A DNA stretch of 64,000 nt from Methylomonas subterranea (GTDB taxonomy: Bacteria; Pseudomonadota; Gammaproteobacteria; Methylococcales; Methylomonadaceae): contig NZ_JANIBJ010000008.1 of NCBI RefSeq assembly GCF_024505185.1, positions 1-64,000 of the forward strand, read 5' to 3'. A program made the position numbers and the translations under genes. The notes below the pieces were generated by a model that saw only the letters and a program-made list of their open reading frames with translations, ran no database searches and was not told the DNA's origin. The first letter of the stretch is position 1, and each line of letters begins with the position of its first letter. Positions 4,990 to 20,637 of this stretch are shown piece by piece.

Positions 4990-5535
4990 TTCGCCGAGAT
5001 CATCCGGCCACGCGAAACCATCATCAAATTCAGCGAGCCACGGGCCATTTTGGCCGACGACTTGAAGGAAACGCTAGCGGAGCTTTACGGGCATTATGTC
5101 GAACGCTCTTTCGTGACTCGGGAATATCAGGAAACAGTGCTGGAACGGGGCATGCGCAAATGGCTTTACAAGGCCGGGATTGTCGAACGCTTTGAGCGCG
5201 CCGAGCTGGGCAATGACGAGTACCACGTGACCTTCCCCTTTGTTGAGCAGCGCAAGGATCATGCGGTAAAGGCTATCAAGCCGCTGCACCTCGGCCATAA
5301 CCAGACTACCAAGATTATTGAGCACGGCGGCCAATGGCTATTGCGGATCAATCAGCTACGCAAGCGAAAAAAATTGCCGGACAGCGTATTGTTTGCCGTC
5401 CAGGGGCCTCAAGAAGATGGCCCGAAAGGCAATGCCTACCGAGAAATTGTAGGGGGGCTGCAAGAAGCCGGAGCGACCGTGCTTCCGTATGCGGACAAAG
5501 ATAGCATTTTGGCTTTTGCAGTTGCTAATTCCTAA
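4990..5535 (+). pseudogene. 5'-truncated hypothetical gene
   Basis: The reading frame is open from 4963 (after a TGA at 4960) to the stop at 5535. Its first plausible start is only a TTG at 5050, yet protein-like sequence begins upstream: FAEIIRPRETIIKFSEPRAI is encoded from 4990, directly after the C-rich repeat. This suggests the C-terminal ~180 residues of a longer protein whose 5' part has been lost. The remainder is a soluble alpha/beta-looking sequence ending in a segment with KKLPDSVLFAVQGPQEDGP and ATVLPYADKDSILAFA. I do not recognise the family with confidence. It may still be expressed from TTG 5050 as a 161 aa product. Confidence 0.55.
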
Positions 5536-5737: not shown

Positions 5738-7009
5738 TTAAAATTCCAGTCTGGCGCCCAACATTAACTTGTTGCTGTTGATGCTGGTATAGCTTTGCAG
5801 GGTTTCATAGGCTAAAAATGCCGAGACGCCGCCGGCAAATACACTGGAAACTTCCGCGCCGAAGGTGTAGTAGTCGCGGCTGGGGCCGTCGCTGGTCATA
5901 ACGAAACTCTGGCCGCTGGGATCGGCGATAAAACCGGCCTCGATTTGACGCGCGCCGTCCATGAATTGGTGATGCCATTCGCCGCGCAACTGCGGAATCA
6001 GAACGCCCCAGGGGAAACTCAAAGCATAACTGGTTTGGATGCCCAGTGTCGAAGTCAAGGATTCTATGGCCTGTTTGCCGAATCTGACGGCGAATACGCT
6101 GCCGGACTCGCTGTAAGCGTCTATATCCAGATTGGAATATTCGCCGCGCGCATAGGGTGCGACGGTCAGGGCATCGAAAATGAAATCGTAGCCGCCGCCC
6201 CAGCTAAAGGCATATTGACCGCCGTTCGGTTTGGCCTTGGCAACGGAGTTTGCGCCCAGGAAGCTGATGTTGCGGGTGGTGTCGTAGCTGAAGCCGCCGT
6301 AGGAAGCCGTGGCGTTGACATGGGCCGCATCGGTAATGTTGTAGGAGGTGTACAGCATGCCGGTGTAACTGTCGTTGACCGTTTCGCCGCGATTGCCGTT
6401 AAAGCTGGCGTTGTTGTGGCGATAGGAGAATGAGCCGCCGGCCACCCAGTTGTCTTTCAGGCGATAATCGGCGCCGAAGACGAAATTATGGTTGTCGAAT
6501 TCGAAGCCGGGCTGGCTGAAAGTCAGGTCGCGCGAACCGAAATCGCTGTCGATTTTGGCCCAGAAGTTCAACGGCGGAAAGTCGCTGTCGCCGGAGCCGC
6601 CGCCGCGTTTCTTTTGATTCAAACCGAAATAATTGGCGGGCCGGCCAATCTTGCCGCCGTTGGTACGGGTGGCCATCGAGCCCATGGCGGTGATTTGATC
6701 CGGAGTGACGTTTTGCACCAAGTTTGGGTCGCAGTTTGATGAGGACACCAAGTATTGAAAATAGTCGGAAAAGCTCCCTTCGAATTGACTTGGAATGGAA
6801 GTATTAAAACCACTAAACGCGCTGGAGTTCTGAAACAGGCTGGTCAAGGCGTCTATCGTGGTCGATTGATTGGCATTGAAGCACTCGGCCGAAACCTGGC
6901 CCGTTGCCAATAACGCGGACAGGCTCCAGCACAATCGCGTCAGCTGGGACTTAGGCTTGGGTGAGACGTTTGGGCATTTGCCGCCCTGAGCGGATATGGA
7001 CTTAAACAT
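5738..7009 (-). CDS. Autotransporter-domain outer-membrane beta-barrel protein
   Basis: The 423 aa protein has a signal-like hydrophobic stretch at about residues 25-41 (LCWSLSALLATGQVSA) after an unusually long basic N-region. A short ~100-residue N-terminal part with a C...C pair follows, then a barrel region from about residue 140 to the end. The barrel has alternating aromatic strands (FWAKIDSDFGSRD, NWVAGGSFSYRHN, YAFSWGGGYDF) and a terminal Phe (KLMLGARLEF), the outer-membrane insertion signature. This matches the autotransporter beta-domain family. The passenger is very small, so it may act as a barrel or adhesin rather than release an enzyme. Tail-to-tail with the truncated gene; possible short alternative starts near residue 20. 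Confidence 0.8.
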   Translation of the reverse strand: MFKSISAQGGKCPNVSPKPKSQLTRLCWSLSALLATGQVSAECFNANQSTTIDALTSLFQNSSAFSGFNTSIPSQFEGSFSDYFQYLVSSSNCDPNLVQNVTPDQITAMGSMATRTNGGKIGRPANYFGLNQKKRGGGSGDSDFPPLNFWAKIDSDFGSRDLTFSQPGFEFDNHNFVFGADYRLKDNWVAGGSFSYRHNNASFNGNRGETVNDSYTGMLYTSYNITDAAHVNATASYGGFSYDTTRNISFLGANSVAKAKPNGGQYAFSWGGGYDFIFDALTVAPYARGEYSNLDIDAYSESGSVFAVRFGKQAIESLTSTLGIQTSYALSFPWGVLIPQLRGEWHHQFMDGARQIEAGFIADPSGQSFVMTSDGPSRDYYTFGAEVSSVFAGGVSAFLAYETLQSYTSINSNKLMLGARLEF

Positions 7010-7081
7010 TTGAAATCTCCAAAAAACTTTGGACCGATTATAGTCGATGTTGCGAATTTTTGAATGTTTGTTGTGAATAAG

Positions 7082-8728
7082 TCACTGGCTGGCTCTGAGC
7101 TTTTCCCTCAGGCTGAGCAAACCCTTATGAGTAGGATAAGCCTCCAGACCGTCCTGGACCCTTTTCAAGGCCGTGGAGCGGTCGTTTCTTTCATAAGCTT
7201 CCCAGGCTTGCTGTTCAAGGGTGTCGGCGATGCCGATAATACCGTTGGCGGCGGCCTTGTTGTAAGGGTCTATTTTCAAAGCTTCCCGATAGGCCCACAA
7301 AGCGTTGCTGCCGGTTGGGGCCGTCAGGTAGCCGACATCGGCGTGAATGCCGGCCAATTCCAGCAGATCCTTGATTTTTTGTTGTTGTTCCGGCGACAGT
7401 TGCACGTTGACCTTGGGGGCTTCCACTATCTTGGGCGGGGCGATCATGCTCAAATAAATATTGGCGGCAAACAAGCCAACGGCGAAAACGCCCGTGCCCC
7501 ATAAACCATAGAACACCGTGGAGCGCGGCCCCAGGGCGGATAAAAATGCATCCACGGTTTTGGTGCGCTGGGCCTGCTCGAATGCCAAGGCTTTCTGCAA
7601 GCCCTTGAATTGCCGGCGGGATAATTTGGCAACCGGTTTGACCTGCAAATTCACTTCCTGGGCTTTTTCGGCGGACAGTCGCCCGAAAGGATGCTTGCCG
7701 GTCAACAGCTCGTAACTGACGCAAGCCAGGGCGTAAATGTCGTCGCGCGGATCCGGATCGCTGTTTTGCAATTGTTCCAGCGAGGCATAGGCCGGCGTAT
7801 AAGCGCCCAGCGAGCGGGCGTTGAAAACCGTGGCATCCTGATGGTCCTTGTCGCCGCGGCCGATGGCGCAGGCGATGCCGAAATCCAGCACCCTGACCTC
7901 GTCGCTGTTGTCGATGAATACGTTGCCGGGTTTGAAGTCCGAATGCACGATGCTCTTTTTATGTGCATGCCGCAAGGCGTCCGCCATCGCGTGTATGATG
8001 GGCCAGGCCTGTTTGAACGGCATGCCCTCCGGGTGTTCCTTGATCAGGTGGCTGAGCGGTTTACCTTCAAGATACTCCATCGACATGAAGACGTGGCCGC
8101 CGTCCCGGTCGAAATCGTAAACCTTGATGATGTTGGGGTGGGACAGGGTTTGCGCGCGCTTGGTTTCGCGCTGCAGCGAGACCAGCGCCATGGGGTTGGC
8201 CTGGAAATCCTGGTTCAGCACTTTCAACGCCACATAGGGCTCCTTGTCCTGCGCCTCGATTTTGCGCAAATCGGTGGCCTTGAACACCATGCCCATGCCG
8301 CCCACGCCCAGCAACTGTTGCAACACGAAACGATTTTTCAGCGTGCTGCCGACCGTCAACTCCTCGTGGGGGTGGGTCTCCCGCAGGCCGCTCAGCAACG
8401 ATTCGGTGTCCATGACGGTGGGAGGCGCGGTGGCCGTGCGCGCATCCTGTATCAGCGTGGCTTGCTCGCCGCGCGGGGCGGCGGAGGGAACGACGGTTAC
8501 CTGCCTCGCGGGCGGAGCGATGTGGGTTTTGTCGCTGAGCTCCGCGTCCAATGCGGCATAATTTTGCGGCGACAGGCGCCCGGCCTGGAATTCGGCGTCC
8601 AGGCAGCGTTTTGCTTCCGCCAACGTGGGTTCGGCCGCCTGTCCCGTCCGGCGGGCGATTTGCAATAATTCGTCAAAACTGATGCTCGACAGCTGAAAAG
8701 CTTTTAATGCCTGGTCAAATGAGTTCAT
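7082..8728 (-). CDS. T6SS-associated Ser/Thr protein kinase (PpkA-type)
   Basis: Membrane-anchored kinase likely to drive T6SS threonine phosphorylation. In 548 aa: an N-terminal region of ~125 residues with low-complexity Pro/Ala/Thr, a kinase domain at about 126-395, a TM helix at about 404-430, and a C-terminal periplasmic region with TPR-like helices (DPYNKAAANGIIGIADTLEQ). Key residues: Gly-loop GVGGMG 141-146, Lys169 (VALKV), catalytic loop HSDFKPGN 262-269 with Asp264 and Lys266, and DFG 282-284. The HRD arginine is Ser263, making it a non-RD kinase. Divergent from the tssJ-to-pppA block, whose phosphatase and FHA protein are its expected partners. Confidence 0.9.
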   Translation of the reverse strand: MNSFDQALKAFQLSSISFDELLQIARRTGQAAEPTLAEAKRCLDAEFQAGRLSPQNYAALDAELSDKTHIAPPARQVTVVPSAAPRGEQATLIQDARTATAPPTVMDTESLLSGLRETHPHEELTVGSTLKNRFVLQQLLGVGGMGMVFKATDLRKIEAQDKEPYVALKVLNQDFQANPMALVSLQRETKRAQTLSHPNIIKVYDFDRDGGHVFMSMEYLEGKPLSHLIKEHPEGMPFKQAWPIIHAMADALRHAHKKSIVHSDFKPGNVFIDNSDEVRVLDFGIACAIGRGDKDHQDATVFNARSLGAYTPAYASLEQLQNSDPDPRDDIYALACVSYELLTGKHPFGRLSAEKAQEVNLQVKPVAKLSRRQFKGLQKALAFEQAQRTKTVDAFLSALGPRSTVFYGLWGTGVFAVGLFAANIYLSMIAPPKIVEAPKVNVQLSPEQQQKIKDLLELAGIHADVGYLTAPTGSNALWAYREALKIDPYNKAAANGIIGIADTLEQQAWEAYERNDRSTALKRVQDGLEAYPTHKGLLSLREKLRASQ

Positions 8729-8930
8729 GATGTCGCGGTATGATGATGTTTGCCTGATTTTAGCCGAAACCCCGACTTGCTGTCGTCCGGCGAGTTCGGT
8801 TGAAGGCGCTGCCCGCTGTCGGCCTTAAAAATTCGGGAGTTTGCGCCGCTACAGAATTGTCCGGTTGGCGAATCTGCGCTGGCTGGTCCACAATGGCGGC
8901 GGTAAATTTTTATTCGATAAGGACATAAAC

Positions 8931-9404
8931 ATGAAACGACTTTTATCCTTGGTTTTGTTGACTGCCTTGCTGCCGGGCTGCGCCGGCGACCCGCCGCTAC
9001 CGCCTCCGCCTCCACCGCCCACCATCGTCAATCTGCTGATCGAAACGTCTACTGATTTAAATGCGGACGTCAACGGCAATGGCGCGCCGGTCATGTTGCG
9101 GATCTTCGAATTGCGCGAGCAAAGCAATTTCAATTCCGCCGATTTTTTCGCCATATTCAACGACGAAAAAGCCACCTTGGCGGCCGATCTGGCCCGCAAG
9201 CAGGAACTGCTGCTGCAGCCCGGCGAAACAAAAAGCCTGATGCTGACTCCCGCCGACGATGTGCAAGCCATCGGCCTGTTTGCGGGTTTTCGGCAATTGG
9301 ATACCGCGCAATGGCGGACAGGGCTGGAGTTGAAGGCGCATCAAACTCAAAATTTGCAAATCAGATTGAAAAATAACCAGTTGACGGTGGAAGCCGCAAA
9401 TTGA
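8931..9404 (+). CDS. tssJ: T6SS outer-membrane lipoprotein TssJ
   Basis: Outer-membrane anchor of the T6SS envelope complex; it binds the periplasmic part of TssM. The 157 aa precursor has a lipoprotein signal MKRLLSLVLLTALLPGC with lipobox LLPGC (Cys17), then a poly-Pro stretch and the TssJ/VasD beta-sandwich (RIFELREQSNFNSADFF, LLQPGETKSL, FAGFRQLD). The ATG at 8931 is used because it gives the signal peptide directly and has AAGG upstream; the frame is open to 8841 but those residues are not signal-like. First gene of the plus-strand block. Its stop overlaps the next ATG by one base. Confidence 0.92.
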   Translation: MKRLLSLVLLTALLPGCAGDPPLPPPPPPPTIVNLLIETSTDLNADVNGNGAPVMLRIFELREQSNFNSADFFAIFNDEKATLAADLARKQELLLQPGETKSLMLTPADDVQAIGLFAGFRQLDTAQWRTGLELKAHQTQNLQIRLKNNQLTVEAAN

Positions 9405-10210
9405 TGCCGTTTTTCCGCCATTTGGCCTGCGCGGGTTTGTCATTGGCTGTTACGGCTTGCGCTTCGCCGGCGGCAAAACTGCATCAGCGGGCCGAACAGT
9501 TGGGCTTGCAAACGCTGGAACTGCCGGGTGGGTCTTATCGCTTGACGGCTTTTTACCGGCCCGGGCAGGCAAACGAGCGGATTTTGCACGTCTACCTGGA
9601 GGGCGACGGCAGGCCTTGGCTGCGGGGGCAATGGCCGGCCGCCGACCCCACCACGCATGCGTCCTTGATGTTGCCGTTGTTGGCTTTGGATACCAAACCG
9701 GCTCTATATCTGGGGCGGCCATGCTATAACGGTCATGCGACGGATCCCGGCTGCGAAGCCAGCTTGTGGACTTCGGCCCGTTACGGCGCGACGGTGGTAA
9801 GTGCCATGGCGGATGCACTGGCAAGCTTTTGCGAAAGTCATGCGTTCAAGCGCATCGTGTTGCTCGGGCATAGCGGCGGCGGCAGTCTGGCCATGCTGTT
9901 GGCCGCCCGCCTGCCGCAAACCGCGTTGATCGTTACCTTGGCGGGCAATTACGACATCGACGCCTGGGCCGATTATCACCATTACTCGCGTCTGGATGAT
10001 TCGCTCAATCCAGCCGGACAAGCCGAGACCGGCTTGCCGGAATGGCATTTTCTGGCGGAACGGGACCGAACGGTGCCGCCGGAATTGTTTTTCAGCGCGC
10101 TGCGGCGGCGAGCGCGGGCACATGTCGAAGTCGTGCCGGGCCTTGAGCATCATGAGGGCTGGCTGGAGCAGTGGCCGCAAATATTGAACAGGATTGCGGA
10201 AATGCGTTAG
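9404..10210 (+). CDS. Alpha/beta-hydrolase lipoprotein in the T6SS locus
   Basis: The 268 aa protein has a lipobox-like end to its signal peptide (LAVTAC, Cys19) and a serine-hydrolase fold. Nucleophile elbow GHSGGG has Ser157; an acid is seen in AERDRTV (Asp221), and the His in LEHHEGW (His249 or 250) completes the triad. An HVYLEGDGRPW segment probably forms the oxyanion region. The ATG at 9404 overlaps the tssJ stop by one base, so the two are translationally coupled. It is not a standard core T6SS gene. It could process lipids or envelope material around the T6SS or be an effector-like lipase, but the lipoprotein signal argues for retention in the producer's own envelope. Function not established. 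Confidence 0.8.
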   Translation: MPFFRHLACAGLSLAVTACASPAAKLHQRAEQLGLQTLELPGGSYRLTAFYRPGQANERILHVYLEGDGRPWLRGQWPAADPTTHASLMLPLLALDTKPALYLGRPCYNGHATDPGCEASLWTSARYGATVVSAMADALASFCESHAFKRIVLLGHSGGGSLAMLLAARLPQTALIVTLAGNYDIDAWADYHHYSRLDDSLNPAGQAETGLPEWHFLAERDRTVPPELFFSALRRRARAHVEVVPGLEHHEGWLEQWPQILNRIAEMR

Positions 10211-10280
10211 GCATTTGTCGCTATGGTGGTTTTCTGCTATTTTCGATGCAGGTTTTTGAACACAACAACAAGGCGGCCGT

Positions 10281-12563
10281 ATGTCTGTAAAGCTTTTTAA
10301 AGCGCGTAAACTGGTGCTGGCGATTTCCACCGTTTTATTGGCGTCCTGTGCCCATGAAGCCAGTAAGGAAGAAATGGCCAAGGCCACCGAAGGCTTTGTG
10401 ATTCAAGACACCAATAAACTGTTTGTGGTGGATTGTTTATTGCCCGGACAGGTGCGGAAACTGGGTTCGCAAATGACTTATCTGACCGCAAGGCGACCGA
10501 TACGCACCACGGCGGCCGATTGCGAAGTGCGCGGCGGCGAATATGTGGCCTACGACCGCGCCAATTATGCCAGCGCCCTGAACATCTGGCTGCCCAAGGC
10601 CCAGGAAGGCGACGCGGCGGCGCAATTGTATGTTGGGGAAATTTTCGAAAAAGGCCTGGGCGAAAAAGCCGACTATCAGGCGGCGGCGCAATGGTACGAA
10701 AAGGCCGCCAATCAAGGCAATTTTCAAGCCCAGTTGAATTTGGGGCATTTGTACGAAAAAGGCCTGGGCGTGCCGCAAAACAAGGAAACCGCCATGCGCT
10801 GGTACCGTAAATCCGCCGGTCTGGATGAAGCAGGTCTGCAATACACGCCGGCGGTTGACGCGCAAGCCCTCGGCGCCGTTAGCCGCGATGCCGGAAATGA
10901 ATTGGCCGCGTTGCGCGAGGAAGTGGCCGAATCTCGCCGGGAAGCCGAACAATTGCGTCAGCAATTGCGCAATACCCGCCAGGAGGCCCTGGATCAGCAG
11001 GAAAGTCTGCGCAAGGCCCAGGATGAATTGGAAGCCTTGCGCAACAAATTGCAGCAGCAAAAATCCGAAAGTCCGGCCGGTTCCAGCGAAGTATCCGCCC
11101 TGGAGATGCAGCTAAGGGAAAAGCAGGCGGAATTAAAAAGCCAGCAAGCCAAACTGGGCGCCTTGACCAAAACCCTCGGCGAGGAACGTAAACGTATGCA
11201 GCGGGAATTGCAAAGCGCCCGGCAGCAAAAAACCGTGGACAAAGCGGCGGATAGCGCCAGCAACGAATTGGAAAACCGCCTCAACCAACAGATTGAAACC
11301 TATCAAAACCAGTCGGCGGAATTGACCCGCTGGCTGACGTCCGGCAAGAATTTGGACAGAAACCAAATCGATGCCCGCAAGTCCTCGTTGCAACAACAGG
11401 CGCGAGAAATCGCCAGCCTGAAGGAAAAATTGGAACAAAAACAACCCACCCAACTGGCATCCGCCGGCAACGGGCCCAACATAGAGTTGTTGGAACCCGC
11501 CGTTACCGTGACCCGGGGCATTCCCAGCATTCAATTCGGTTCCGGCGAGGCCAGTAAGCGTCTGGTCGGACGCATCGATACCAAGGCGGGGTTGACGCAA
11601 TTGTTGCTCAACGATAAGCCGCTGACGGTGGATGCCAATGGTCAATTCGAAACCGATCTGGCCTTGCAGGGCAAGGAAACCGTGGTGCGGCTGGTCGCAA
11701 CCGATAAAAGCAATCAAAGCAGCGATTTAAGCCTGCGCCTGCTGGCGTCCGAAAACGGCGAACAGGCCGCTTATGCCAACAGCGGCAATGCCGCCCAAAC
11801 CCGTCAGGTCGGCAATATCCAGTTTGGCAAATTTTATGCTTTGATCATAGGTAACAACGATTACAAAGCCTATCCAAGTCTGCAAACCCCGGTTACCGAT
11901 GCCAAAAGCCTGGAAGTGTTGCTGCGCGAACGTTACGGCTTCAAAACCAAAATATTGCTGAACGCCAATCGCCACGCCATCATGTCGGCGTTGAACGAAA
12001 TGAATCAGAAACTCACCGAGCAGGACAATCTGCTGATTTATTATGCCGGCCACGGCGAAATCGACCAGAAGTCCCAAAGCGCCTACTGGTTGCCGGTGGA
12101 CTCGGAAGCCGGCAATACCGCCAACTGGATTTCCAGCCAAAGCATCACCGAATATTTAAGCATCATGCCGGCCAAACACATCATGGTGGTGGCGGACTCC
12201 TGTTATTCCGGCGCCCTGACCGGTTCGGCGGTGGCGCGTTTGCCGGACGGCATGGACGAGGCCAAGCGCGAACGCTGGCTCAAGGCCATGAACAGCCGCA
12301 AGGCTCGCACCGTTCTGACTTCCGGCGGCGTCAAGCCGGTCATGGACCAGGGCGGCGGCAGCCACTCTGTGTTCGCCAACGCCTTTTTAAAAGTGCTGCG
12401 CGGCAATAAGCGGGTGATAGAGGATTACGACATTTTCCGGGACGTCGCCAATCAGGTAAGAGTCTCCGCTTCCAAGGTCGGTTTCGAACAAACGCCGCAA
12501 TATGCGCCGCTGCAACATGCCGGCCATGAAGGCAGTCCTTTCTTTTTTGTCCCCGAGGCTTGA
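10281..12563 (+). CDS. Caspase-like (C14) lipoprotein with Sel1 repeats and coiled coil
   Basis: The 760 aa protein has, in order, a lipoprotein signal (LLASC, Cys23), two to three Sel1-like repeats at about 106-180 (DAAAQLYVGEIFEKGLG, NFQAQLNLGHLYEKGLG), a long Gln/Glu/Arg-rich coiled coil at about 205-390, an Ig-like segment at about 400-490, and a caspase p20-like domain at about 515-750. The dyad is intact: His591 in YYAGHGE and Cys641 in VADSCYSGAL. The lipobox places it in the periplasm or at a membrane face. It lies inside the T6SS block between the hydrolase lipoprotein and the FHA gene, 70 bp and 35 bp from each. Its substrate is unknown; I infer a T6SS-linked processing or regulatory protease. 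Confidence 0.85.
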   Translation: MSVKLFKARKLVLAISTVLLASCAHEASKEEMAKATEGFVIQDTNKLFVVDCLLPGQVRKLGSQMTYLTARRPIRTTAADCEVRGGEYVAYDRANYASALNIWLPKAQEGDAAAQLYVGEIFEKGLGEKADYQAAAQWYEKAANQGNFQAQLNLGHLYEKGLGVPQNKETAMRWYRKSAGLDEAGLQYTPAVDAQALGAVSRDAGNELAALREEVAESRREAEQLRQQLRNTRQEALDQQESLRKAQDELEALRNKLQQQKSESPAGSSEVSALEMQLREKQAELKSQQAKLGALTKTLGEERKRMQRELQSARQQKTVDKAADSASNELENRLNQQIETYQNQSAELTRWLTSGKNLDRNQIDARKSSLQQQAREIASLKEKLEQKQPTQLASAGNGPNIELLEPAVTVTRGIPSIQFGSGEASKRLVGRIDTKAGLTQLLLNDKPLTVDANGQFETDLALQGKETVVRLVATDKSNQSSDLSLRLLASENGEQAAYANSGNAAQTRQVGNIQFGKFYALIIGNNDYKAYPSLQTPVTDAKSLEVLLRERYGFKTKILLNANRHAIMSALNEMNQKLTEQDNLLIYYAGHGEIDQKSQSAYWLPVDSEAGNTANWISSQSITEYLSIMPAKHIMVVADSCYSGALTGSAVARLPDGMDEAKRERWLKAMNSRKARTVLTSGGVKPVMDQGGGSHSVFANAFLKVLRGNKRVIEDYDIFRDVANQVRVSASKVGFEQTPQYAPLQHAGHEGSPFFFVPEA

Positions 12564-12598
12564 TGGCAATGATGTGCATTGCGCGGCAGGTTTGAAGC

Positions 12599-14140
12599 AT
12601 GGTGTTGATTCTCAGAGTCCTGAGCTATAAGGGCTTGCCGTCCGCTCAACCCATCAGTGCCCAGTTCGACGCCCAAGGCGGCTCGATTGGCCGGGCGCCC
12701 AACAATCATCTGGTGTTGCCGGACCCGGATAAATTCATTTCCCGCCTGCATGCCAGCATCCATTTCGAGGCCGGCCGCTATTTTATCGAAGACAGCAGTA
12801 CCGGCGGCACCTTTCTCAACGATAGCGACGTTCCATTGCAGCAAGGCCGGGCGCCGTTGTCGGACGGGGAAAAAGTCCGCATAGGCGAATACGAATTGCT
12901 GGTGACATTGTCCGAGTCCGCCACGGCGGGCTTTGCCGTCAGCATAGAACAACCCGTGCGGCAACTGGATCTGGCCCAAAACAGCGTGCTGGACGGCCCT
13001 TTCGCTTCCGCGCCGCCGCCAGCCAAGGCGGATTTTTTTTCCAGTTTTGTCGAGCAATCCGAATCTTCGGTCTTTCACCAAAGTTTTACCCCGCCGCAAA
13101 TTGCCGAAACGCCCACGCACGCGGCGGTGGACGAGCTGGATTTCGGCGATCTGTTGTCCAAGCTGGATGAATTGCCGGGAAGCCCGGCTCCCGCCGTCCA
13201 TGCCCAGCCGCTCGATTTGCCGCCCTTGCCGGCGGATTTTTTCGCCGATGAGCCTGTCGCCACGGAGCCGGAAATTCCGGTCACTCCGGTCACTCCGGTC
13301 ACTCCGGTCACTCCGGTCACTCCGGTCACTCCGGTCACTCCGGTCACTCCGGTCACCGAGGCGGCAGCGCCCTGGCCGTCGTTTGGCGAAACTCCGGCGG
13401 AGTTGCCGCCGCTGGCGCCGTTCGACATGCCGGAACCCGCGCCGGCGGTTTTTTCGCCGCCGCCCGTCGAGCCGGTTTTTTCGCCGATTCAGGAAGACGT
13501 TCGCACGGCGGCCGAGCCGACGCGGGTTGCGCCGCAGCCGGCGCAAGCGGTAGCCACGGTTACCGAAGAGCAATTATTGCGCGAATTTTTGGCCGGGGCC
13601 GGCGTGGGCGACCCGCATTTTCTCCCGCCCGAACAATGGCCGGCCTTGATGAGAACTTCCGGCGAGTTGTTGCGCGGCATGGTGCAGGGTTTGATGCAGG
13701 TGCTGCGGGCCAGGGCGGAATTGAAAAGCCAGTTTCGGGTTTCGGTGACCACCATGCGATCGGTGGATAACAACCCGCTCAAATTCACCCCGAATGTCGA
13801 CGATGCCATCAAGTTGATCCTGGCGCCCACCAATCCCGGGTTTTTGCCGCCCAAACAAGCTGTCAGCGAAGGATTCAACGACATCATGAACCACCAGATC
13901 GCCATGACCGCCGGCATACAAGCCGCCTTGGCGGAAATATTGCGCAGCTTCGATCCGCAGCTGATAGAAAGGACCCAGACGGAAGGCGTGATGTTTCAGA
14001 AAAAGGCCAAGTGCTGGGAGTATTACGTCGAAAAATATCCGCAACTCAAGGCGGTTGCTCAGGAAGAGTTTTTTGGTGACGCATTTGCCGACGCCTATGA
14101 AAAACAGATGCTGTTACTTAGCCGCTCGGCAAAAAATTAG
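12599..14140 (+). CDS. tagH: T6SS FHA-domain protein (TagH/ImpI type)
   Basis: Phosphothreonine reader of the T6SS post-translational switch. The 513 aa protein has an N-terminal FHA domain at about 5-95 with Gly31-Arg32, Ser48, His51 (SRLHA) and Asn74 (GGTFLND). A long Pro/Ala-rich linker follows and contains nine PVT repeats, then the conserved C-terminal TagH/ImpI domain at about 330-513 (QLLREFLAGAG, FQKKAKCWEYYVEKYPQL). FHA proteins of this kind bind phosphorylated T6SS parts such as TssL or the kinase itself. The neighbouring kinase and phosphatase genes support that role. Confidence 0.92.
   Translation: MVLILRVLSYKGLPSAQPISAQFDAQGGSIGRAPNNHLVLPDPDKFISRLHASIHFEAGRYFIEDSSTGGTFLNDSDVPLQQGRAPLSDGEKVRIGEYELLVTLSESATAGFAVSIEQPVRQLDLAQNSVLDGPFASAPPPAKADFFSSFVEQSESSVFHQSFTPPQIAETPTHAAVDELDFGDLLSKLDELPGSPAPAVHAQPLDLPPLPADFFADEPVATEPEIPVTPVTPVTPVTPVTPVTPVTPVTPVTEAAAPWPSFGETPAELPPLAPFDMPEPAPAVFSPPPVEPVFSPIQEDVRTAAEPTRVAPQPAQAVATVTEEQLLREFLAGAGVGDPHFLPPEQWPALMRTSGELLRGMVQGLMQVLRARAELKSQFRVSVTTMRSVDNNPLKFTPNVDDAIKLILAPTNPGFLPPKQAVSEGFNDIMNHQIAMTAGIQAALAEILRSFDPQLIERTQTEGVMFQKKAKCWEYYVEKYPQLKAVAQEEFFGDAFADAYEKQMLLLSRSAKN
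13277..13357 (+). repeat. 9-bp tandem repeat coding for (PVT)9
   Basis: Nine perfectly spaced copies of ccggtcact (the last ends in c), with starts every 9 bases from 13277 to 13349. They encode nine Pro-Val-Thr units in the linker of the FHA protein. Because the unit is a multiple of three, copy-number change alters linker length without shifting the frame. Confidence 0.97.
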
Positions 14141-14348
14141 CCTTCCGTTTGGCGCATGCCGGCCGATGTGAATCGACTGCGTAACGGTAGGTTTTGGCAA
14201 TGAGGGCAAAACGCCTGAAACAGCTGAGTCGGTCGGCGAAATAATCGAGCAACCAGAGCGGCCCGCGTATTGGGTTGTGCCGCGGAAAATACCGCGCGGA
14301 ATAATTAAAATTAACAAACTCCATTGCCCACGGGCTTGAGAAGAAAAA

Positions 14349-15689
14349 ATGTCGGAAAATAATCGGGTAGTCTGGTCTGAGGGGATGTTTCTCCGCCCTC
14401 AGCATTTTCAACAGCATGATCGCTACATCGAAAGCCTGGCGCGTGGCCTGTCGCAGGGCGTCGTAAGTTACTTGTGGGGGTTTTCCCGTCTCAAGCTGGA
14501 CCAAACCTGTCTGGCCATCGGTAAAGTCGGGCTGAGCGAATGCGCGGGGGTATTTCAGGACGGCACGCCCTTCAATCTGCCGCAGGACGACGATTTGCCG
14601 CTGCCCTTGGCGGTGCCGGAGAACGAGAAAGCCAGCGTGGTCTATCTGGCGCTGCCATTGCGCCGTTCAGACGCCGTTGAAGTGGATAGCGAATCCTATC
14701 CCGACAACATGGCCCGCTATCATTTGAGCGAACGGCAGGCGCGCGACCACAACAGCGGCGCGGACGGCCGTTACGAGGTGCAGATCGGTAGTCTGCGGCC
14801 GCGCCTGATGTGCGAAAGCCAGGAGCGCTCCGGTTACGTCTGTCTGGGCGTGGCGCGCATCATCGAAGTGCGGGCCGATAAAACCGTGATTCTGGACGAA
14901 CAATACATTCCGCCGGCGGTGCATTGCGCCAGCGCCGGCATCCTGGCCGGCTTTGCCCGCGAGTTGCAAGGCCTGTTTCACACCCGCGGCGAGGCCTTGG
15001 CGGCCCGGGTGGCCGGCAGCGGGCAGGGCGGCGGCGTGGCGGAAATCGCCGATTTCATGTTGCTGCAAATGATCAACCGCTATCAACCCCTGCTGGCGCA
15101 TTTGGCGGTTGCGGCCGCCATGCATCCGGAAGCCTTCTTTCAATTATGCCTACAGTTGGCCGGCGAGTTATCGACGTTTTACCGGCCCGGCAAGCGGCCG
15201 CTGGCCTTTCCCGATTACAAACACGACGACCTGAAATTCAGCTTCATACCCTTGATCGACGAATTGCGCGGTCTGCTGAGCATGGTGCTGGAACAGAACG
15301 CGGTGCAATTGCCGCTGGCGGAAGTCAAACCGGGGGTTTACGTGGCCAAGCGGCCGGAGCTGAATCTGTTGGAAGGCGCCATCTTCGTGTTGGCGGCCAA
15401 GGCGCAAGTCTCGTCGGAACTGATACGCTCGCATTTTCCGCCGCAAGTCAAAATCGGCCCGGTCGAAGATATCCAGACATTGGTTCGTTCGGCCTTGCCG
15501 GGTATCAATATTCAGGCCTTGCCGGTGGCGCCCCGGCAAATTCCCTACCACGCCGGCTATTCGTATTTCGAACTGAACAAGCAAAGCGAACTGTGGGGCA
15601 AAATGCCTGTTTCCGGCGGCTTTGCCATTCACATCGGCGGCAGTTTCCCGGAACTGGAGCTCGAGTTTTGGGCCATTAGAAAAGGTTGA
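14349..15689 (+). CDS. tssK: T6SS baseplate protein TssK
   Basis: Trimeric baseplate component that links the T6SS baseplate to the TssL/TssM membrane complex. The 446 aa protein opens with the family signature VVWSEGMFLRPQHFQQHDRY and includes LRPRLMCESQERSGY and YHAGYSYFELNK near the C-terminus. ATG 14349 follows a GAAGAAAA purine run. A 208-bp gap upstream, the largest inside the block, may hold its own promoter. tssL starts 5 bp after its stop. Its usual baseplate partners TssE, TssF and TssG are not in the window. Confidence 0.95.
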   Translation: MSENNRVVWSEGMFLRPQHFQQHDRYIESLARGLSQGVVSYLWGFSRLKLDQTCLAIGKVGLSECAGVFQDGTPFNLPQDDDLPLPLAVPENEKASVVYLALPLRRSDAVEVDSESYPDNMARYHLSERQARDHNSGADGRYEVQIGSLRPRLMCESQERSGYVCLGVARIIEVRADKTVILDEQYIPPAVHCASAGILAGFARELQGLFHTRGEALAARVAGSGQGGGVAEIADFMLLQMINRYQPLLAHLAVAAAMHPEAFFQLCLQLAGELSTFYRPGKRPLAFPDYKHDDLKFSFIPLIDELRGLLSMVLEQNAVQLPLAEVKPGVYVAKRPELNLLEGAIFVLAAKAQVSSELIRSHFPPQVKIGPVEDIQTLVRSALPGINIQALPVAPRQIPYHAGYSYFELNKQSELWGKMPVSGGFAIHIGGSFPELELEFWAIRKG

Positions 15690-15694
15690 CAGTC

Positions 15695-17083
15695 ATGAGT
15701 GAAAACGATCCCTTCGGACCTTTCGGCGACGATGACCGCACCGTGATCCGGCCCACGCCGGGTGGACGGCGTCCCGCTCCGGCGCCCGCGCAACCGGCGC
15801 CGGTTTTCAGCGCGCCTCCCGCGCAGCCCGCGCCTGCGTCCGCGTTCACTCCGCCTCCCCAGCCCGCTGCCGCGCCGATGCCGGGCTTCAATCCGTCGGC
15901 GCCGCTAACCCTGCCGAGCACGGAGTTTCAACAGAACCCCATGGTGGCGGCGGCATTGTCGATGATTTCGTTGGCCAGTCGCTTGCGCCAGACAGCGGTT
16001 TATCCGGCGGTGGACGAATTGCGCCAGCGTTTGTCGGCCGAAGTCAGCGGCTTCGAAAATAAATTGTTGCAGACCGGTATCAGCGCCGATCATGTGCGCA
16101 TGGCCAGTTATGCGCTGTGCAGTTTCCTGGACGAAACCATACTCAACACGCCCTGGGGTTCGCAAAGCAATTGGGGGCACCAAAGTCTGTTGATTTCCTT
16201 TCACAAGGAGGCCTGGGGCGGCGAAAAGTTTTTCGACATCATCGGCTTGTTGGTGAAGCAGCCGGCGCAAAATCTGCATTTGATCGAGCTGGCTTATCTG
16301 TTTCTGAGCTTGGGCTTTCAAGGCAAATTCCGGATTTTGGCCAACGGCCTGAACGAACTGGAAAAATACCGCTTGGAGCTTTATCAGCTGATTCAGCGGG
16401 TGAAGGGCGATTACGAACGCGAACTGTCGCCGCGCTGGCGGGGCTTGCGCGACGTACGCAATGCCTTGGTGCGTTACGTGCCGCTGTGGGTGGTCGGCGC
16501 GGTATTGGGCGTGGCCTTGATTCTGGTTTATATCGGCTTTGTGCTGGCTTTGAATGCCCGTTCGGACCAACTGTTTGCCGAATTGTTCGGGCTGGCCAAA
16601 CAGCCGGTGGAAATGGCCCAGGCCGCCGTCGCGATACCGGCACCGGTGCCGAAACCGCCCGTTCCGGATCGCCGCGAACGCTTCAAACAGCTTTTGGCCA
16701 ACGAGATTGCCGCCAATATGGTGGAAGTGGTGGACGACCGACTGCTGCGGGTGCGTAATTCCTTCGGTTCCGGCAGCGACCAGCTCAAGCCCGAATTCGA
16801 GCCCATGCTGAAAAAAATCGCCGACGAATTGGTGGCCGGCAACGACAGGCTGCTGGTGACCGGCCATTCCGATAACGTACCCATCCGTTCGGCCCGTTTC
16901 CCGTCCAATTGGCATTTATCCACCGCCAGGGCCAAATCGGTCGCCGACGATATGATGAAAATCGCGCCGCCGCTGCAAGGCAAAATCCGTTCGGAAGGGC
17001 GGGCCGACAGCGAAGGCTTGGTGCCTAACGATACTCCCGAGCACAAAGCGATCAATCGCCGCGTCGATTTACTGATTCAATGA
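15695..17083 (+). CDS. tssL: T6SS inner-membrane protein TssL with C-terminal OmpA domain
   Basis: Inner-membrane part of the T6SS envelope complex (DotU/IcmH family) fused to a peptidoglycan-binding OmpA domain. In 462 aa: an N-terminal acidic/basic motif DDDRTVIRPTPGG with Thr16, a Pro/Ala-rich linker, the DotU cytoplasmic domain at about 80-255 (CSFLDETILNTPWG), one TM helix at about 260-285 (VVGAVLGVALILVYIGFVLA), and an OmpA-like domain at about 325-462 (LLVTGHSDNVP, INRRVDLLIQ). ATG 15695 is preferred over an in-frame TTG at 15686 because AAAGG lies upstream. Known for Agrobacterium: TssL is phosphorylated on an N-terminal Thr and then bound by Fha. The same switch is inferred here. Confidence 0.94.
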   Translation: MSENDPFGPFGDDDRTVIRPTPGGRRPAPAPAQPAPVFSAPPAQPAPASAFTPPPQPAAAPMPGFNPSAPLTLPSTEFQQNPMVAAALSMISLASRLRQTAVYPAVDELRQRLSAEVSGFENKLLQTGISADHVRMASYALCSFLDETILNTPWGSQSNWGHQSLLISFHKEAWGGEKFFDIIGLLVKQPAQNLHLIELAYLFLSLGFQGKFRILANGLNELEKYRLELYQLIQRVKGDYERELSPRWRGLRDVRNALVRYVPLWVVGAVLGVALILVYIGFVLALNARSDQLFAELFGLAKQPVEMAQAAVAIPAPVPKPPVPDRRERFKQLLANEIAANMVEVVDDRLLRVRNSFGSGSDQLKPEFEPMLKKIADELVAGNDRLLVTGHSDNVPIRSARFPSNWHLSTARAKSVADDMMKIAPPLQGKIRSEGRADSEGLVPNDTPEHKAINRRVDLLIQ

Positions 17084-17091
17084 GAGCATAA

Positions 17092-20000
17092 ATGGGCAAG
17101 CTGAAAGCATTTTTTACCAATAAATGGGTGATTCAGTTTCTGGGTTTGCTGGCCTTCGGCATCCTGATCTGGCTGGCCGGACCCTTGATTGCCATTGCCG
17201 GCAACGCACCGCTGGAGTCGGAATTGGTCAGGATTCTGGTGATCGCGGCCTTGTTCGTGTTTTGGGTGATTTACCGGCTGATCATGCAGATCAGGGCCGG
17301 CAACACCGAAAAACAGCTGGTCGAACAGTTGGTTGCCAACGATGCCGACCAGATAGCCATGGCCTCCGCCGACGAAGTCGATATGCTGCGCAAGGGCTTC
17401 GAGGAAGCCTTGACGATATTGAAGCAATCGCGCACGGAAGCCAAATCCGGCGGCCAGTTTATCTATCAATTACCCTGGTACGCCATTATCGGCGCGCCGG
17501 GTTCCGGCAAGACCACCGCCCTGATTAATTCCGGCCTGCATTTTCCCTTGGCGGAAAAGCTCGGCAAACACGCGGTCAAGGGCGTCAGCGGTACCCGTAA
17601 CTGCGACTGGTGGTTTGCCGACGATGCGGTGTTTCTGGATACCGCCGGCCGCTACACCACGCAGGAAAGCCATCAGGCGGTGGATGCGGCCGGCTGGGCC
17701 GGGTTTTTAAACCTGATCAAAAAACACCGGCCCTTGCGGCCCTTGAACGGCGTCATCGTCGCCACCAGCGTTTCCGACCTGTTGCAGCAGTCCGAGCAGG
17801 AGCGGGCCGAGCATGCCAAGGCCGTCCGCGCCCGTATCAATGAGTTGTATCAACAGTTGGGCGTGCGCCTGCCGGTGTATTTGTTGTTCACCAAGGCCGA
17901 TCTGGTGGCCGGTTTCAGCGATTTTTTCGCCGATTTCAGCGCGGAAGCCCGCGCCCAGGTCTGGGGGGAAACCTTTTCCGCCACCACCTTGCAGGGTGAC
18001 CACGACTTGGTGGTGCAATTCGGCGAGGCTTATGCCGAGTTGCTGCAACGCCTGCAAATGCGCACATTGGGACGTATTCAGGATGAGCGGGACATGCAGC
18101 GGCGGGCGGCTATCCTGGATTTTCCGCAGCAGATGGCCTTGTTAAAACCGGCCATGCTGGATTTTCTGCGAGCTACCTTCGCGGTCAACCGCTATGAACA
18201 GGCCGTGTTGTTGCGCGGGGTGTATTTCACCAGCGGCACTCAGGAAGGCACGCCGATCGACCGTGTGCTGGGGATTCTGGCCGGCGCCTTCCGCCTGGAC
18301 AGGCAGACGGCCCCGATGTACAGCGGCCAGGGTAAAAGTTTTTTCCTGACCCGTTTGCTGAAGGATGTATTGTTTCCGGAAGCCGAACTGGCCGGGCAAG
18401 ACCCCAAACTGGCCAAACGCACGCGCTTGTTGCAAATAGCCGCATACGTCGGTTCCGGACTGTTGTTTTTACTGGTGATCGGATTGTGGACTGCCAGTTA
18501 TTTCAATAACCAGACCATGCTGGATAAAGTGGAGGCGCAAATTGCCCAATACCACGCCATCAAAACCAGCGCTATCGATACGCAAGGCAATTTCAATGCC
18601 TTGCTGCCGCGCCTAAACATTTTGCTGGCCATCCGCGGGGTTTATGACGATAGCGGCATCATGTCCGGCTGGGGGCTGTCGCAAGCGGACAAGATTCAGG
18701 CCGCCGCCGGCCATGCTTACGAGCAGCTGTTGCGCAATTATTTTTTGCCCGCCATTCAGATGCGTTTGAAAGAACGCATGCAGGGGCCGGAAGCCAATAA
18801 TCTGGACGTGCTGTATCAGCTGCTGAAAGTGTATTTGATGTTCAATCAAACCGACAAACTCGATCCGGCCACCGCCATGGCCTGGATACGCGCGGATTGG
18901 GACAGGCAGTACGCCACCGACCCGGAAAGCCTGGGCCAACTGGTGCGGCATTTGGATAACCTGCTCAAGTTGCAACTGGATCCGATGCAGATCGATGAGG
19001 GTTTTGTCGGCGGCGTGCGGAATAAACTCACCCAGGTACCTTTGATCGGGCAGATTTACTCCCGTTTCAAAACCGAAGCCTTAGTCGATCAAAGCCGCGA
19101 CTTTAAACTGGGCAAGGCCTTGGGGCCGGACGTCACGCGGGTGTTCGTGCTGGCCGACGGCAAGGACGTGGCCGCTTATACCATACCGGGCGTTTTCACG
19201 GCATACGGCTACACCGAACTGTTTTTGAAAAAAAGCCGAGATTTCGTCAAGGATGCGGTAGAGCAAAATTGGGTGTTGGGTAGCGAGGGCAAGGCCGACC
19301 TTTTGCAAATCCAGCAATTGCACGGCGAATTGAAGAAGTTGTATTTAAACGAATACCAGGCGGCCTGGTCGGATTTGCTGGGCAAATTGAAATTGCAAAC
19401 GGCTGTGTCGACCAATCAGACCGCGCAAATTCTGGATATTTTGTCCCGCCCGGATGGGCCGTTAAATGCCTTGCTGGTCGCCATCGATCAGAATACTTCG
19501 CTAAGCCGCTTGAGCAAGCAAGTCAGCGACGCCTTGGCCAATGTTGCCGGCAAGGCGCTGGCGGCGGCGGGCGGTGCCGGCAGTCAGGCGCTGGCCTTGG
19601 CTCAGGATGCGGCGGGTCTGGATTCCGGACCCGATCCGGTACAGGCGGTGGAAGACAGGTTCGAACCCTTGCGCAACTTGGTGGCCGGCGGCCCCGACAA
19701 GCCCACGGCCTTGGAACCGGTATTGCAGCAATTGAAAAGCCTGCGCGATTACTTTTTGCAACTCAGCAGCGCCAACACCGGCGGTCAAGCTCTGCAAAAC
19801 CAGGCCAATCTGTTCAGCGGCGGCGGCATGGACGTGCTGAAACAGGCGCAATTGGAGTTTGCCCGCTTACCGGAGCCCTTGAAAAGTTGGTTTCAAATCA
19901 TAGTCAGTAGCGGCGGCCAAAAACTGACCTCGGCGGCCAAGGGCCAATTGAGCGAAATGGTGAAAACCGGGGTGGCGTCACCTTGCAAAGCGGCCTTAAA

Positions 20001-20637
20001 CGGGCGCTACCCATTTTCCAGTGCGTCGACGCAGGACGTTTTGCTGGCCGACTTCGCCAAACTGTTTGCTCCGGCCGGTTTGATCGACCAGTTTTTTCAA
20101 GCCAATTTAAAAGCTTTCGTCGATACCACCAAGCCGGTGTGGACGGAAATGGCCGCCGAAAAGCCGTTGGGTTTGGCGCAGGCCTCTATCCGCCAGTTTC
20201 AAACCGCCGCCAAAATACGCGATGCCTTTTTCGCGGTCGGTAGCATGCCGCAAGTGCAATTCGAACTAAAACCGCAATTGCTGGATAACACGGTCGGTAC
20301 TTTTCGCTTGCAGGTGGAAGGCCAGGAAGCGGTGTATCGGCACGGCCCGGAACAATCCATCAGCATGAAATGGCCGGGCCCGAATCCCAGCCAGGGCGTG
20401 CGTATCGTGTTCGAAACCTTGGACGGTCGGCAAGTCAGCCGCGGCAAGGAAGGCACCTGGGCGTTTTTTCGCTTGCTGGATGAAGCTACCATCGTGCAGG
20501 GTAACGCGCCGGAACAATTTACCCTGACCTTCAAACTGCAAGGCATGAGCGCCAGCTACCAACTGCGGGCGGCTAGCGTCAACAATCCGTTCAATCTGCG
20601 GGAGCTGCAAAGTTTCCGCTGCCCGGATGCGTTGTGA
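17092..20637 (+). CDS. tssM: T6SS inner-membrane protein TssM (IcmF/VasK)
   Basis: Large membrane ATPase-like core of the T6SS envelope complex; its periplasmic part reaches TssJ. The 1181 aa protein is of normal family length. TM helices lie at about 10-30 and 43-62, and a third at about 449-469. The cytoplasmic loop holds Walker A GAPGSGKTT at residues 134-142 and a DTAGRYTTQE Walker-B-like segment. A long periplasmic region follows, ending in the TssM C-terminal beta domain (FRLQVEGQEAVYRHGPEQ, MKWPGPNP). The intact Walker A suggests nucleotide binding is retained. Its stop overlaps the start of the TagF-PppA gene by 4 bp (GTGA). Confidence 0.96.
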   Translation: MGKLKAFFTNKWVIQFLGLLAFGILIWLAGPLIAIAGNAPLESELVRILVIAALFVFWVIYRLIMQIRAGNTEKQLVEQLVANDADQIAMASADEVDMLRKGFEEALTILKQSRTEAKSGGQFIYQLPWYAIIGAPGSGKTTALINSGLHFPLAEKLGKHAVKGVSGTRNCDWWFADDAVFLDTAGRYTTQESHQAVDAAGWAGFLNLIKKHRPLRPLNGVIVATSVSDLLQQSEQERAEHAKAVRARINELYQQLGVRLPVYLLFTKADLVAGFSDFFADFSAEARAQVWGETFSATTLQGDHDLVVQFGEAYAELLQRLQMRTLGRIQDERDMQRRAAILDFPQQMALLKPAMLDFLRATFAVNRYEQAVLLRGVYFTSGTQEGTPIDRVLGILAGAFRLDRQTAPMYSGQGKSFFLTRLLKDVLFPEAELAGQDPKLAKRTRLLQIAAYVGSGLLFLLVIGLWTASYFNNQTMLDKVEAQIAQYHAIKTSAIDTQGNFNALLPRLNILLAIRGVYDDSGIMSGWGLSQADKIQAAAGHAYEQLLRNYFLPAIQMRLKERMQGPEANNLDVLYQLLKVYLMFNQTDKLDPATAMAWIRADWDRQYATDPESLGQLVRHLDNLLKLQLDPMQIDEGFVGGVRNKLTQVPLIGQIYSRFKTEALVDQSRDFKLGKALGPDVTRVFVLADGKDVAAYTIPGVFTAYGYTELFLKKSRDFVKDAVEQNWVLGSEGKADLLQIQQLHGELKKLYLNEYQAAWSDLLGKLKLQTAVSTNQTAQILDILSRPDGPLNALLVAIDQNTSLSRLSKQVSDALANVAGKALAAAGGAGSQALALAQDAAGLDSGPDPVQAVEDRFEPLRNLVAGGPDKPTALEPVLQQLKSLRDYFLQLSSANTGGQALQNQANLFSGGGMDVLKQAQLEFARLPEPLKSWFQIIVSSGGQKLTSAAKGQLSEMVKTGVASPCKAALNGRYPFSSASTQDVLLADFAKLFAPAGLIDQFFQANLKAFVDTTKPVWTEMAAEKPLGLAQASIRQFQTAAKIRDAFFAVGSMPQVQFELKPQLLDNTVGTFRLQVEGQEAVYRHGPEQSISMKWPGPNPSQGVRIVFETLDGRQVSRGKEGTWAFFRLLDEATIVQGNAPEQFTLTFKLQGMSASYQLRAASVNNPFNLRELQSFRCPDAL

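Follow-up and report, generated by a model that had tools for sequence, protein, structure and literature searches.

A caspase-like predicted lipoprotein in a type VI secretion control block of Methylomonas subterranea and its recurring association with a PpkA-type kinase gene

The window analysed here, a whole stretch of 64,000 nucleotides from Methylomonas subterranea (contig NZ_JANIBJ010000008.1, positions 1 to 64,000), carries a gene for a caspase-like predicted lipoprotein within a type VI secretion system (T6SS) locus. The genes of this block follow the order kinase (minus strand), tssJ, alpha-beta hydrolase, caspase, tagH (fha), tssK, tssL, tssM and tagF-PP2C (Table 1). The ATG of the hydrolase overlaps the tssJ stop (TGATG), and the caspase gene is separated by 70 bases from the hydrolase and by 35 bases from tagH. 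The threonine-phosphorylation gene set is complete in the block, with a kinase carrying a predicted membrane helix, an FHA protein and a PP2C phosphatase alongside tssJ-tssM, and the phospho-switch T6SS setting given in a preliminary description of this DNA was thus confirmed, the kinase, FHA and TagF-PP2C genes lying beside tssJ-tssM.

The open reading frame, Pfam profiles and alignments also bore out the architecture first proposed for the 760-residue protein, namely a lipobox, Sel1 repeats, a coil and a C14 domain in which His591 and Cys641 are intact. Its closest named relatives are Methylomonas homologues showing 74-94% identity. The lipobox LLASC was recognised by eye on the translation at residues 19-23. 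When a strict lipobox pattern was applied to the relatives, it matched 51/65 caspase frames and 28/39 hydrolase frames, those missed having mostly, by eye, lipoprotein-like signals or wrong starts. The caspase is presumably located at the outer membrane.

Membership of peptidase family C14 was indicated by a score above the profile cut-off and by the presence of the His-Cys dyad, which was invariant in 17/17 full-length and 28/28 C-terminal sequences, the window sequence being counted in both; Asp639 was likewise invariant (28/28, window sequence included). The top solved structure by sequence was the MALT1 paracaspase (E 1e-10), the match covering the N-terminal half of the C14 domain. Solved MALT1 structures include the paracaspase domain together with Ig3, and Asp365, Asp462 and Glu500 are the acids thought to determine its P1 specificity, which is for Arg (PMC4357240). 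As the invariant Asp540 aligns with the Asp of MALT1 PLVDVYE, which we take to be the S1 acid Asp365, the caspase is predicted to cut after Arg or Lys. MALT1 itself is a eukaryotic protein with other partners, unlike the window caspase, which has the C14 His-Cys dyad in common with bacterial metacaspases and orthocaspases. The EACC1-associated caspases (NF047832) belong to the same C14 superfamily, and the window protein scored 77.5 bits against that family, under its cut-off of 140.

The whole-protein AlphaFold2 model was poor, with a mean predicted local distance difference test score (pLDDT) of 49, and was unusable for the caspase domain. Modelled separately, residues 396-497 gave an all-beta domain (pLDDT 88), and a Foldseek search of this model against the PDB returned fibronectin type III (FnIII)/immunoglobulin (Ig)-like and other beta-sandwich modules as top matches (E ~1e-3, TM-score to 0.6). 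The segment described earlier as Ig-like therefore stands as an all-beta domain, and its placing in the beta-sandwich (Ig/FnIII-like) fold class is weakly supported by these model-based matches. At the N-terminus, a sixty-residue stretch was strongly conserved over 28 homologues and gave no Pfam match at E 1e-3, and may be an undescribed domain. A second, divergent C14 match (29.4 bits) was observed in the same genome on contig C3 (103818-104261), within a 694-residue frame.

Table 1. Coordinates of the caspase-like protein, its segments and residues, and the neighbouring genes (positions in the window)
Feature	Position	Strand	Basis
Caspase-like predicted lipoprotein, 760 aa	10281..12563	+	Frame open throughout; Peptidase_C14 profile
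Cys23, predicted lipidated residue (LLAS-C)	10347..10349	+	Translation; invariant in 17/17 sequences
N-terminal conserved region, residues 47-106 (VDCLLPGQ...RGGEYVAYDRA)	10419..10598	+	28-sequence alignment
Two Sel1 repeats, about residues 107-179	10599..10817	+	PF08238, E 4.1e-17, two stretches; start of first repeat by eye
Long helix or coil, residues 202-385	10884..11435	+	Low-confidence whole-protein AlphaFold2 model, helices 202-263, 269-314, 324-353, 360-385; coil-like profile matches over the same residues
Candidate Ig/FnIII-like all-beta domain, residues 396-497	11466..11771	+	Separate AlphaFold2 model, pLDDT 88
C14 caspase domain, residues 519-742	11835..12506	+	PF00656 Peptidase_C14, E 1.1e-24, 87.9 bits (cut-off 21.4)
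Asp540, predicted S1-pocket acid (basic P1)	11898..11900	+	Invariant 28/28; pairs with Asp of MALT1 PLVDVYE
Catalytic His591 (YYAGHG)	12051..12053	+	Invariant 28/28
Catalytic Cys641 (DSCYSG)	12201..12203	+	Invariant 28/28
Outer-membrane protein with autotransporter beta-domain, 423 aa (barrel at residues 149-402)	5738..7009	-	PF03797, E 8e-58
Ser/Thr kinase, PpkA-type layout	7082..8728	-	PF00069, E 6e-39
tssJ, T6SS outer-membrane lipoprotein	8841..9404	+	TIGR03352, E 2e-34
Alpha/beta-hydrolase predicted lipoprotein (GHSGG; LTAC lipobox)	9404..10210	+	Lipase_3, E 1.4e-4, just above cut-off
tagH / fha, FHA-domain T6SS protein	12599..14140	+	TIGR03354, E 7e-92
tssK	14349..15689	+	TIGR03353
tssL with OmpA-like C-terminus	15686..17083	+	PF09850, PF00691
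tssM	17092..20637	+	TIGR03348, 1195 bits
tagF-PP2C phosphatase fusion	20634..22232	+	PF09867, PF13672

The distribution of the caspase was analysed within Methylomonas on a sample of 25 genomes (the source genome and 24 others). A full-length caspase was found in 16 of them and TssM above cut-off in 19, including all 16 with the caspase, and the same 16/16 also carried an orthologue of the kinase. Caspase and tssM lay within 10 kb of each other in five genomes (G000, G009, G014, G015 and G016; G, L and C numbers denote genomes, loci and contigs), and the order kinase, tssJ, hydrolase, caspase, tagH, tssK-L-M was kept in L034, L035 and L078. In G008 the contigs break, and the caspase contig (named twin L033) still carries the hydrolase and tagH.

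Among 301 Methylococcales genomes, the caspase profile (E 1e-20) matched in 96 and TssM exceeded its cut-off in 104, both being present in 73 (Fisher 5e-25, kinship ignored); a few of the 96 matches are paralogues or fragments. The two genes were on the same contig in 46 of the 73 genomes and on different contigs in 27. Distances in the 46, taken from start to start and counting any caspase-profile match at the same threshold, were within 20 kb in 24 genomes, 20-60 kb in 6 and larger in 16. The 24 linked genomes, among which G140 is counted via a second caspase copy, belong to 10 genera of two families. The block order of the window was found again in G048, from the other family (L134), and the remaining linked loci varied in gene order and orientation; in G041, G239 and G105, tssJ was within ~100 bases of the caspase.

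These data bear on three earlier statements. Absence of the gene from orthologous T6SS loci, named beforehand as the mark of a chance insertion, was not what was observed across Methylococcales, where 24/46 genomes are linked within 20 kb. The caspase had been described as built into the T6SS, and it proved to be a recurring member of the control block and not of T6SS generally. Finally, it is not a core T6SS part, as had been stated, since 73 of the 104 tssM-bearing Methylococcales genomes possess it. The idea that the linkage was a recent accident of the window's clade was held at first, because 10/16 Methylomonas genomes keep the genes apart and the caspase occurs without tssM in other families, and was overturned by the order-wide searches and the locus contexts.

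Trees were then built from a C-terminal stretch of ~375 residues in 65 rows, made up of the window, 38 Methylococcales loci and 26 from other gammaproteobacterial orders. All 18 T6SS-linked rows, defined as lying within 20 kb of tssM, fell in a single clade of 29 rows with a support of 100/100 in the more careful tree, and none of the 36 rows outside this clade was labelled T6SS-linked. One of these labels is loose, the G140 row being a copy ~25 kb from tssM, and 17 rows are linked by the copy shown. Unlinked rows within the clade include Methylomonas genomes with the T6SS elsewhere, G041a and G105, in which tssJ is beside the caspase, and G052/G086. Of the two caspase copies in G041, the T6SS-type one adjoins tssJ and the second, which belongs to the other type, adjoins a barrel gene. 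Ten stretches had been chosen for the nearness of caspase and tssM and eight of these entered the tree, which inflates fractions within the clade; the clade split itself is independent of that selection, and the order-wide 24/46 is the less biased figure. As the linkage recurs across genera and the clade is supported at 100/100, the T6SS linkage of the caspase is more than chance.

Other orders were sampled with a broader caspase profile (E 1e-25), which matched 40/367 genomes, 25 of them judged full-length from the tabulated matches; two caspase-bearing Methylococcales had been removed from this class sample and two more with neither gene were retained. TssM (E 1e-100) was present in 12/25 of the full-length-caspase genomes versus 59/367 overall (Fisher 1e-4, phylogeny and genome size ignored). 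The 26 other-order loci derive from 24 of these genomes and from two found in a phylum search (G788 and G823, which have no genome-wide tssM count). A tblastn search up to 10 kb from the caspase found no tssJ, tagH, tssK, tssL or tssM in any of them, some flanks being short at contig ends. Within the same distance tblastn found the kinase in 21/26, the barrel in 16/26, the hydrolase in 13/26 and PP2C in 5/26, and profiles returned 19/26, 15/26, 13/26 and 5/26 respectively, together with weak FHA matches in 4 loci and, in 3, matches to OmpA-type tssL. Applied to 28 control loci (421 kb), which were non-random, having been chosen for Sel1 or distant C14 matches, these profiles gave 1 kinase, 2 OmpA-type tssL, 0 hydrolase and 0 barrel matches. 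Query-free clustering of the neighbours in 64 loci ranked hydrolase (39), kinase (37) and barrel (36) as the top three; the frame picker behind the clustering and the profile counts was greedy and dropped some genes, and the locus counts were repeated by tblastn. A hydrolase homologue was within 10 kb of the caspase in 21/28 T6-type loci, 7/10 other Methylococcales loci and 13/26 other-order loci (tblastn). The partnership of caspase and kinase, with the hydrolase lipoprotein and the autotransporter barrel, is wider than the T6SS link.

A barrel homologue was likewise within 10 kb of the caspase in 12/28 T6-type, 10/10 other Methylococcales and 16/26 other-order loci (tblastn), a recurrence that would suit a maturation protease whose envelope substrate, for instance the passenger of the autotransporter or a membrane-complex protein of the T6SS, is cut so that the barrel or the complex can form. 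Many barrel partners also have a Gly-rich linker before the barrel, preceded in the window by basic residues (KKR-GGG). A cleavage site in this linker was considered and rejected, as no conserved basic residue precedes it across the aligned barrel proteins, and the barrel gene was not near the caspase in 16/28 T6-type loci; we judge a maturation role improbable. The linker, at 6581-6613 of the window and directly before the barrel in many of the aligned proteins, often reads GG[GAN][AS]G-D.

The kinase encoded in the window has its kinase domain at residues 136-362, one membrane helix predicted from hydropathy at ~412-430 and a predicted periplasmic tail of ~100 residues. This conserved tail (7085-7399; ELAxIHxxVGxLTAPxGSNAxxAYxxVLxIDPYN, TPR-like in look) is common to caspase-linked kinases and to at least one T6SS-linked kinase, that of G506. 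A tail profile reached 100 bits in 12/25 caspase-bearing genomes versus 0/55 others; 11 of the 25 had supplied training rows, and 4/14 of the rest reached 100 bits, one of them (G639) sharing its genus with a training row. At E 1e-6 the profile matched 22/25 caspase-bearing genomes but also 15/55 others, and it was discarded as a general caspase marker, only strong matches being specific.

In other orders, eight T6SS loci of genomes with the caspase were read (L260, L263-L269). In three of them (G506, G353 and G501; L260, L264 and L265) a kinase 43-44% identical to that of the window follows tagF-PP2C, the match extending through the tail in G506 only. The caspase genes of these three genomes are on other contigs, each with its own nearby kinase, and in G376 and G503 (L261, L262) a kinase of this kind lies beside a PP2C gene, away from the caspase. 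Since T6SS loci and caspase loci both draw on this kinase family, it is likely the hinge between them.

The two partners were also found fused. In G544, from a genus outside Methylococcales, a single frame of 861 residues (L251 6345-8930) holds a kinase domain (15-265) and a C14 domain (624-833) with, by eye, a coil and an Ig-like stretch between them, and lies ~4 kb from PP2C, tagF and tssM. An 861-residue frame whose kinase and C14 matches are arranged likewise occurs in G639 of that genus (L252), and both genomes also hold a separate caspase beside a kinase (L234, L235). Fusion of otherwise adjacent partners is classic evidence for joint function. Among the roles proposed in the preliminary description, that of a scaffold or partner of the kinase gained the most support, because the kinase stays with the caspase where no T6SS gene lies nearby and because of the fusion.

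A different kind of frame was observed in G622 (L253 2-6271), where 2089 residues running from the locus edge comprise YDG and FG-GAP repeats as well as a TPS secretion domain, with C14 at the C-terminus; this frame adjoins FHA, PP2C, kinase, tagF and tssM genes. The occurrence of C14 at the end of such a large exported protein, and the presence of caspase domains in polymorphic toxins, where they act as the toxin or in processing (PMC3482391), might recall a T6SS cargo or a surface adhesin exported to act on neighbours. The window protein has a lipobox, and neither Pfam nor NCBIfam gave it a secretion-adaptor domain at E 1e-3; we consider such a function extremely improbable.

The interpretation that we prefer, with a probability of roughly one half, is that of a caspase in the envelope that pairs with a PpkA-type kinase and was taken up as an input to the T6SS phospho-switch. 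A paracaspase/metacaspase-like protease anchored in the outer membrane would work with a transmembrane Ser/Thr kinase of the PpkA type, and one Methylococcales subfamily would have been joined to the T6SS membrane-complex genes and to those of threonine phosphorylation (kinase, FHA, TagF-PP2C). The Sel1 repeats and the coil may span the periplasm to the kinase tail, to TssJ-TssM or to both, so that an envelope signal would reach the caspase, which, by cleavage or by binding, would set the kinase, then Fha, and finally T6SS assembly. This interpretation draws on the architecture, the intact dyad, the recurrent linkage, the T6SS-linked clade and the kinase-caspase fusion, all read from sequence; the contact with the kinase, the position of the caspase upstream of it and the substrate are its conjectural parts. 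A stronger version, in which the outer-membrane caspase senses envelope injury, cuts a periplasmic Arg/Lys site, activates the kinase and thereby triggers firing of a protease-gated T6SS, appears doubtful; it would amount to a bacterial caspase-kinase relay, merged in one lineage into a single protein encoded in the T6SS region.

The block resembles the known PpkA-Fha-PppA/TagF pathway in having a transmembrane kinase, FHA, PP2C and TagF beside tssJ-tssM and a gene for an envelope protein, and the single helix and tail of the window kinase correspond to the PpkA layout described for Acidovorax (PMC12607579). There, the outer-membrane protein TssW, encoded between ppkA and fha, is the envelope partner of PpkA (PMC12607579), as is RtkS, encoded in the T6SS cluster, in Serratia (PMC6082577), while TagQRST of P. 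aeruginosa is an envelope input to the same threonine-phosphorylation pathway. The caspase most likely fills the place held elsewhere by TagQRST, RtkS and TssW as envelope input to the kinase. It sits, like TssW, between kinase and fha, a likeness by gene position alone, and it differs from these inputs in its caspase dyad, Sel1 repeats and coil, none of which is named for them in the portions of the papers cited; the words caspase and Sel1 are absent from the main text of the TssW paper (PMC12607579). As for TagQRST itself, of which TagS/TagT is an ABC transporter, the scan of genes from 5738 to 22232 gave no ABC-transporter domain, the TagR domain not being searched as such.

A number of results weigh against the proposed input role. 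The protease activity, the contact and the T6SS role are all predictions from sequence, and the co-occurrence statistics ignore phylogeny. In Methylococcales, 31/104 tssM-bearing genomes have no caspase and 23/96 caspase-bearing genomes have no tssM; G052 (L246) and G086 (L138) have no tssM above cut-off and retain, side by side, caspase and hydrolase along with PP2C and a short FHA protein. In Methylomonas, the caspase is apart from tssM in 10/16 genomes, being far away on the same contig in five (G002, G005, G011, G013 and G017) and on a different contig in five (G006, G012, G020, G023 and G024). In such unlinked contexts (L036-L039, L041, L081-L086) the hydrolase, kinase and barrel genes adjoin the caspase and no T6SS gene is present, L040 ending at the caspase gene. 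L079, L080 and L237 showed no hydrolase gene between tssJ and the caspase. With regard to the kinase, the remaining five of the eight T6SS loci from other orders gave a weak match (29-36%; L263, L266 and L269) or none (L267 and L268), some of the 21 kinases near other-order caspases match only in the general kinase domain, and in the 10 non-T6SS-type Methylococcales loci tblastn gave no kinase up to 10 kb from the caspase. The G544 fusion is without a predicted membrane helix, and a periplasmic site is therefore not universal.

Part of these data favours the strongest rival, in which the caspase belongs, with kinase, hydrolase and barrel, to a separate module for envelope stress or surface proteins, and T6SS genes adjoin it only through the common kinase/FHA/PP2C switch, the caspase having no T6SS role. 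The module does occur without nearby T6SS genes in other orders, the caspase is apart from tssM in 10/16 Methylomonas genomes, and G052 and G086 retain it without tssM. This explanation accounts poorly for a single subfamily being T6SS-linked over 10 genera with varied local order, for tssJ at ~100 bases or less from the caspase in G041, G239 and G105, and for the kinase-caspase fusion ~4 kb from PP2C-tagF-tssM in another order; we regard it as possible, if rather unlikely.

The protein had also been proposed to act as a suicide or defence protease, i.e. an executioner activated by T6SS or phage attack to kill or lyse the cell. Bacterial gasdermins are activated by caspase-like proteases in phage defence (PMC9612521), and a generic PADLOC caspase model matches the window protein (E 2.8e-15). 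Beyond that generic match no positive evidence emerged: Pfam scans of the window block gave no gasdermin or NTPase match, the lipobox predicts an extracytoplasmic site, and we regard the proposal as highly improbable.

If the preferred interpretation, a caspase feeding the T6SS phospho-switch, were correct, it would add a new kind of PpkA envelope input beside TagQRST, RtkS and TssW. Few bacterial caspases have an established role, and the phospho-switch offers a measurable output in the form of Fha phosphorylation, Hcp secretion and T6SS foci; a protease-kinase pairing in bacterial signalling would thereby become genetically tractable. In a survey of bacterial C14 proteins, Sel1 was among the commonest partner domains (6.0% of sequences, 40), and its operon section, which gives secretion only as a less common inferred function, describes no T6SS or PpkA/FHA link (PMC3501461). 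The domains and the switch are thus known ones, and the open-licence literature searched contained neither their combination nor a report of a caspase homologue paired with T6SS control.

Within the block, the products of tssJ, tagH, tssK, tssL, tssM and tagF-PP2C each scored above at least one curated cut-off, TssL falling below that of the NCBIfam long-form model. A sheath gene (VipB/TssC family) is on a different contig, C28, and the T6SS genes are therefore spread across two or more loci or contigs. A scan of 8600-14600 for Sigma-70 promoters and terminators stayed near shuffle level. The true start of tssJ is probably the ATG at 8931, which by eye from the translation is just 5' of the lipobox. 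Upstream of the block, between cvfB and the barrel gene (5050-5535), a short frame resembles, by eye, a truncated gene remnant.

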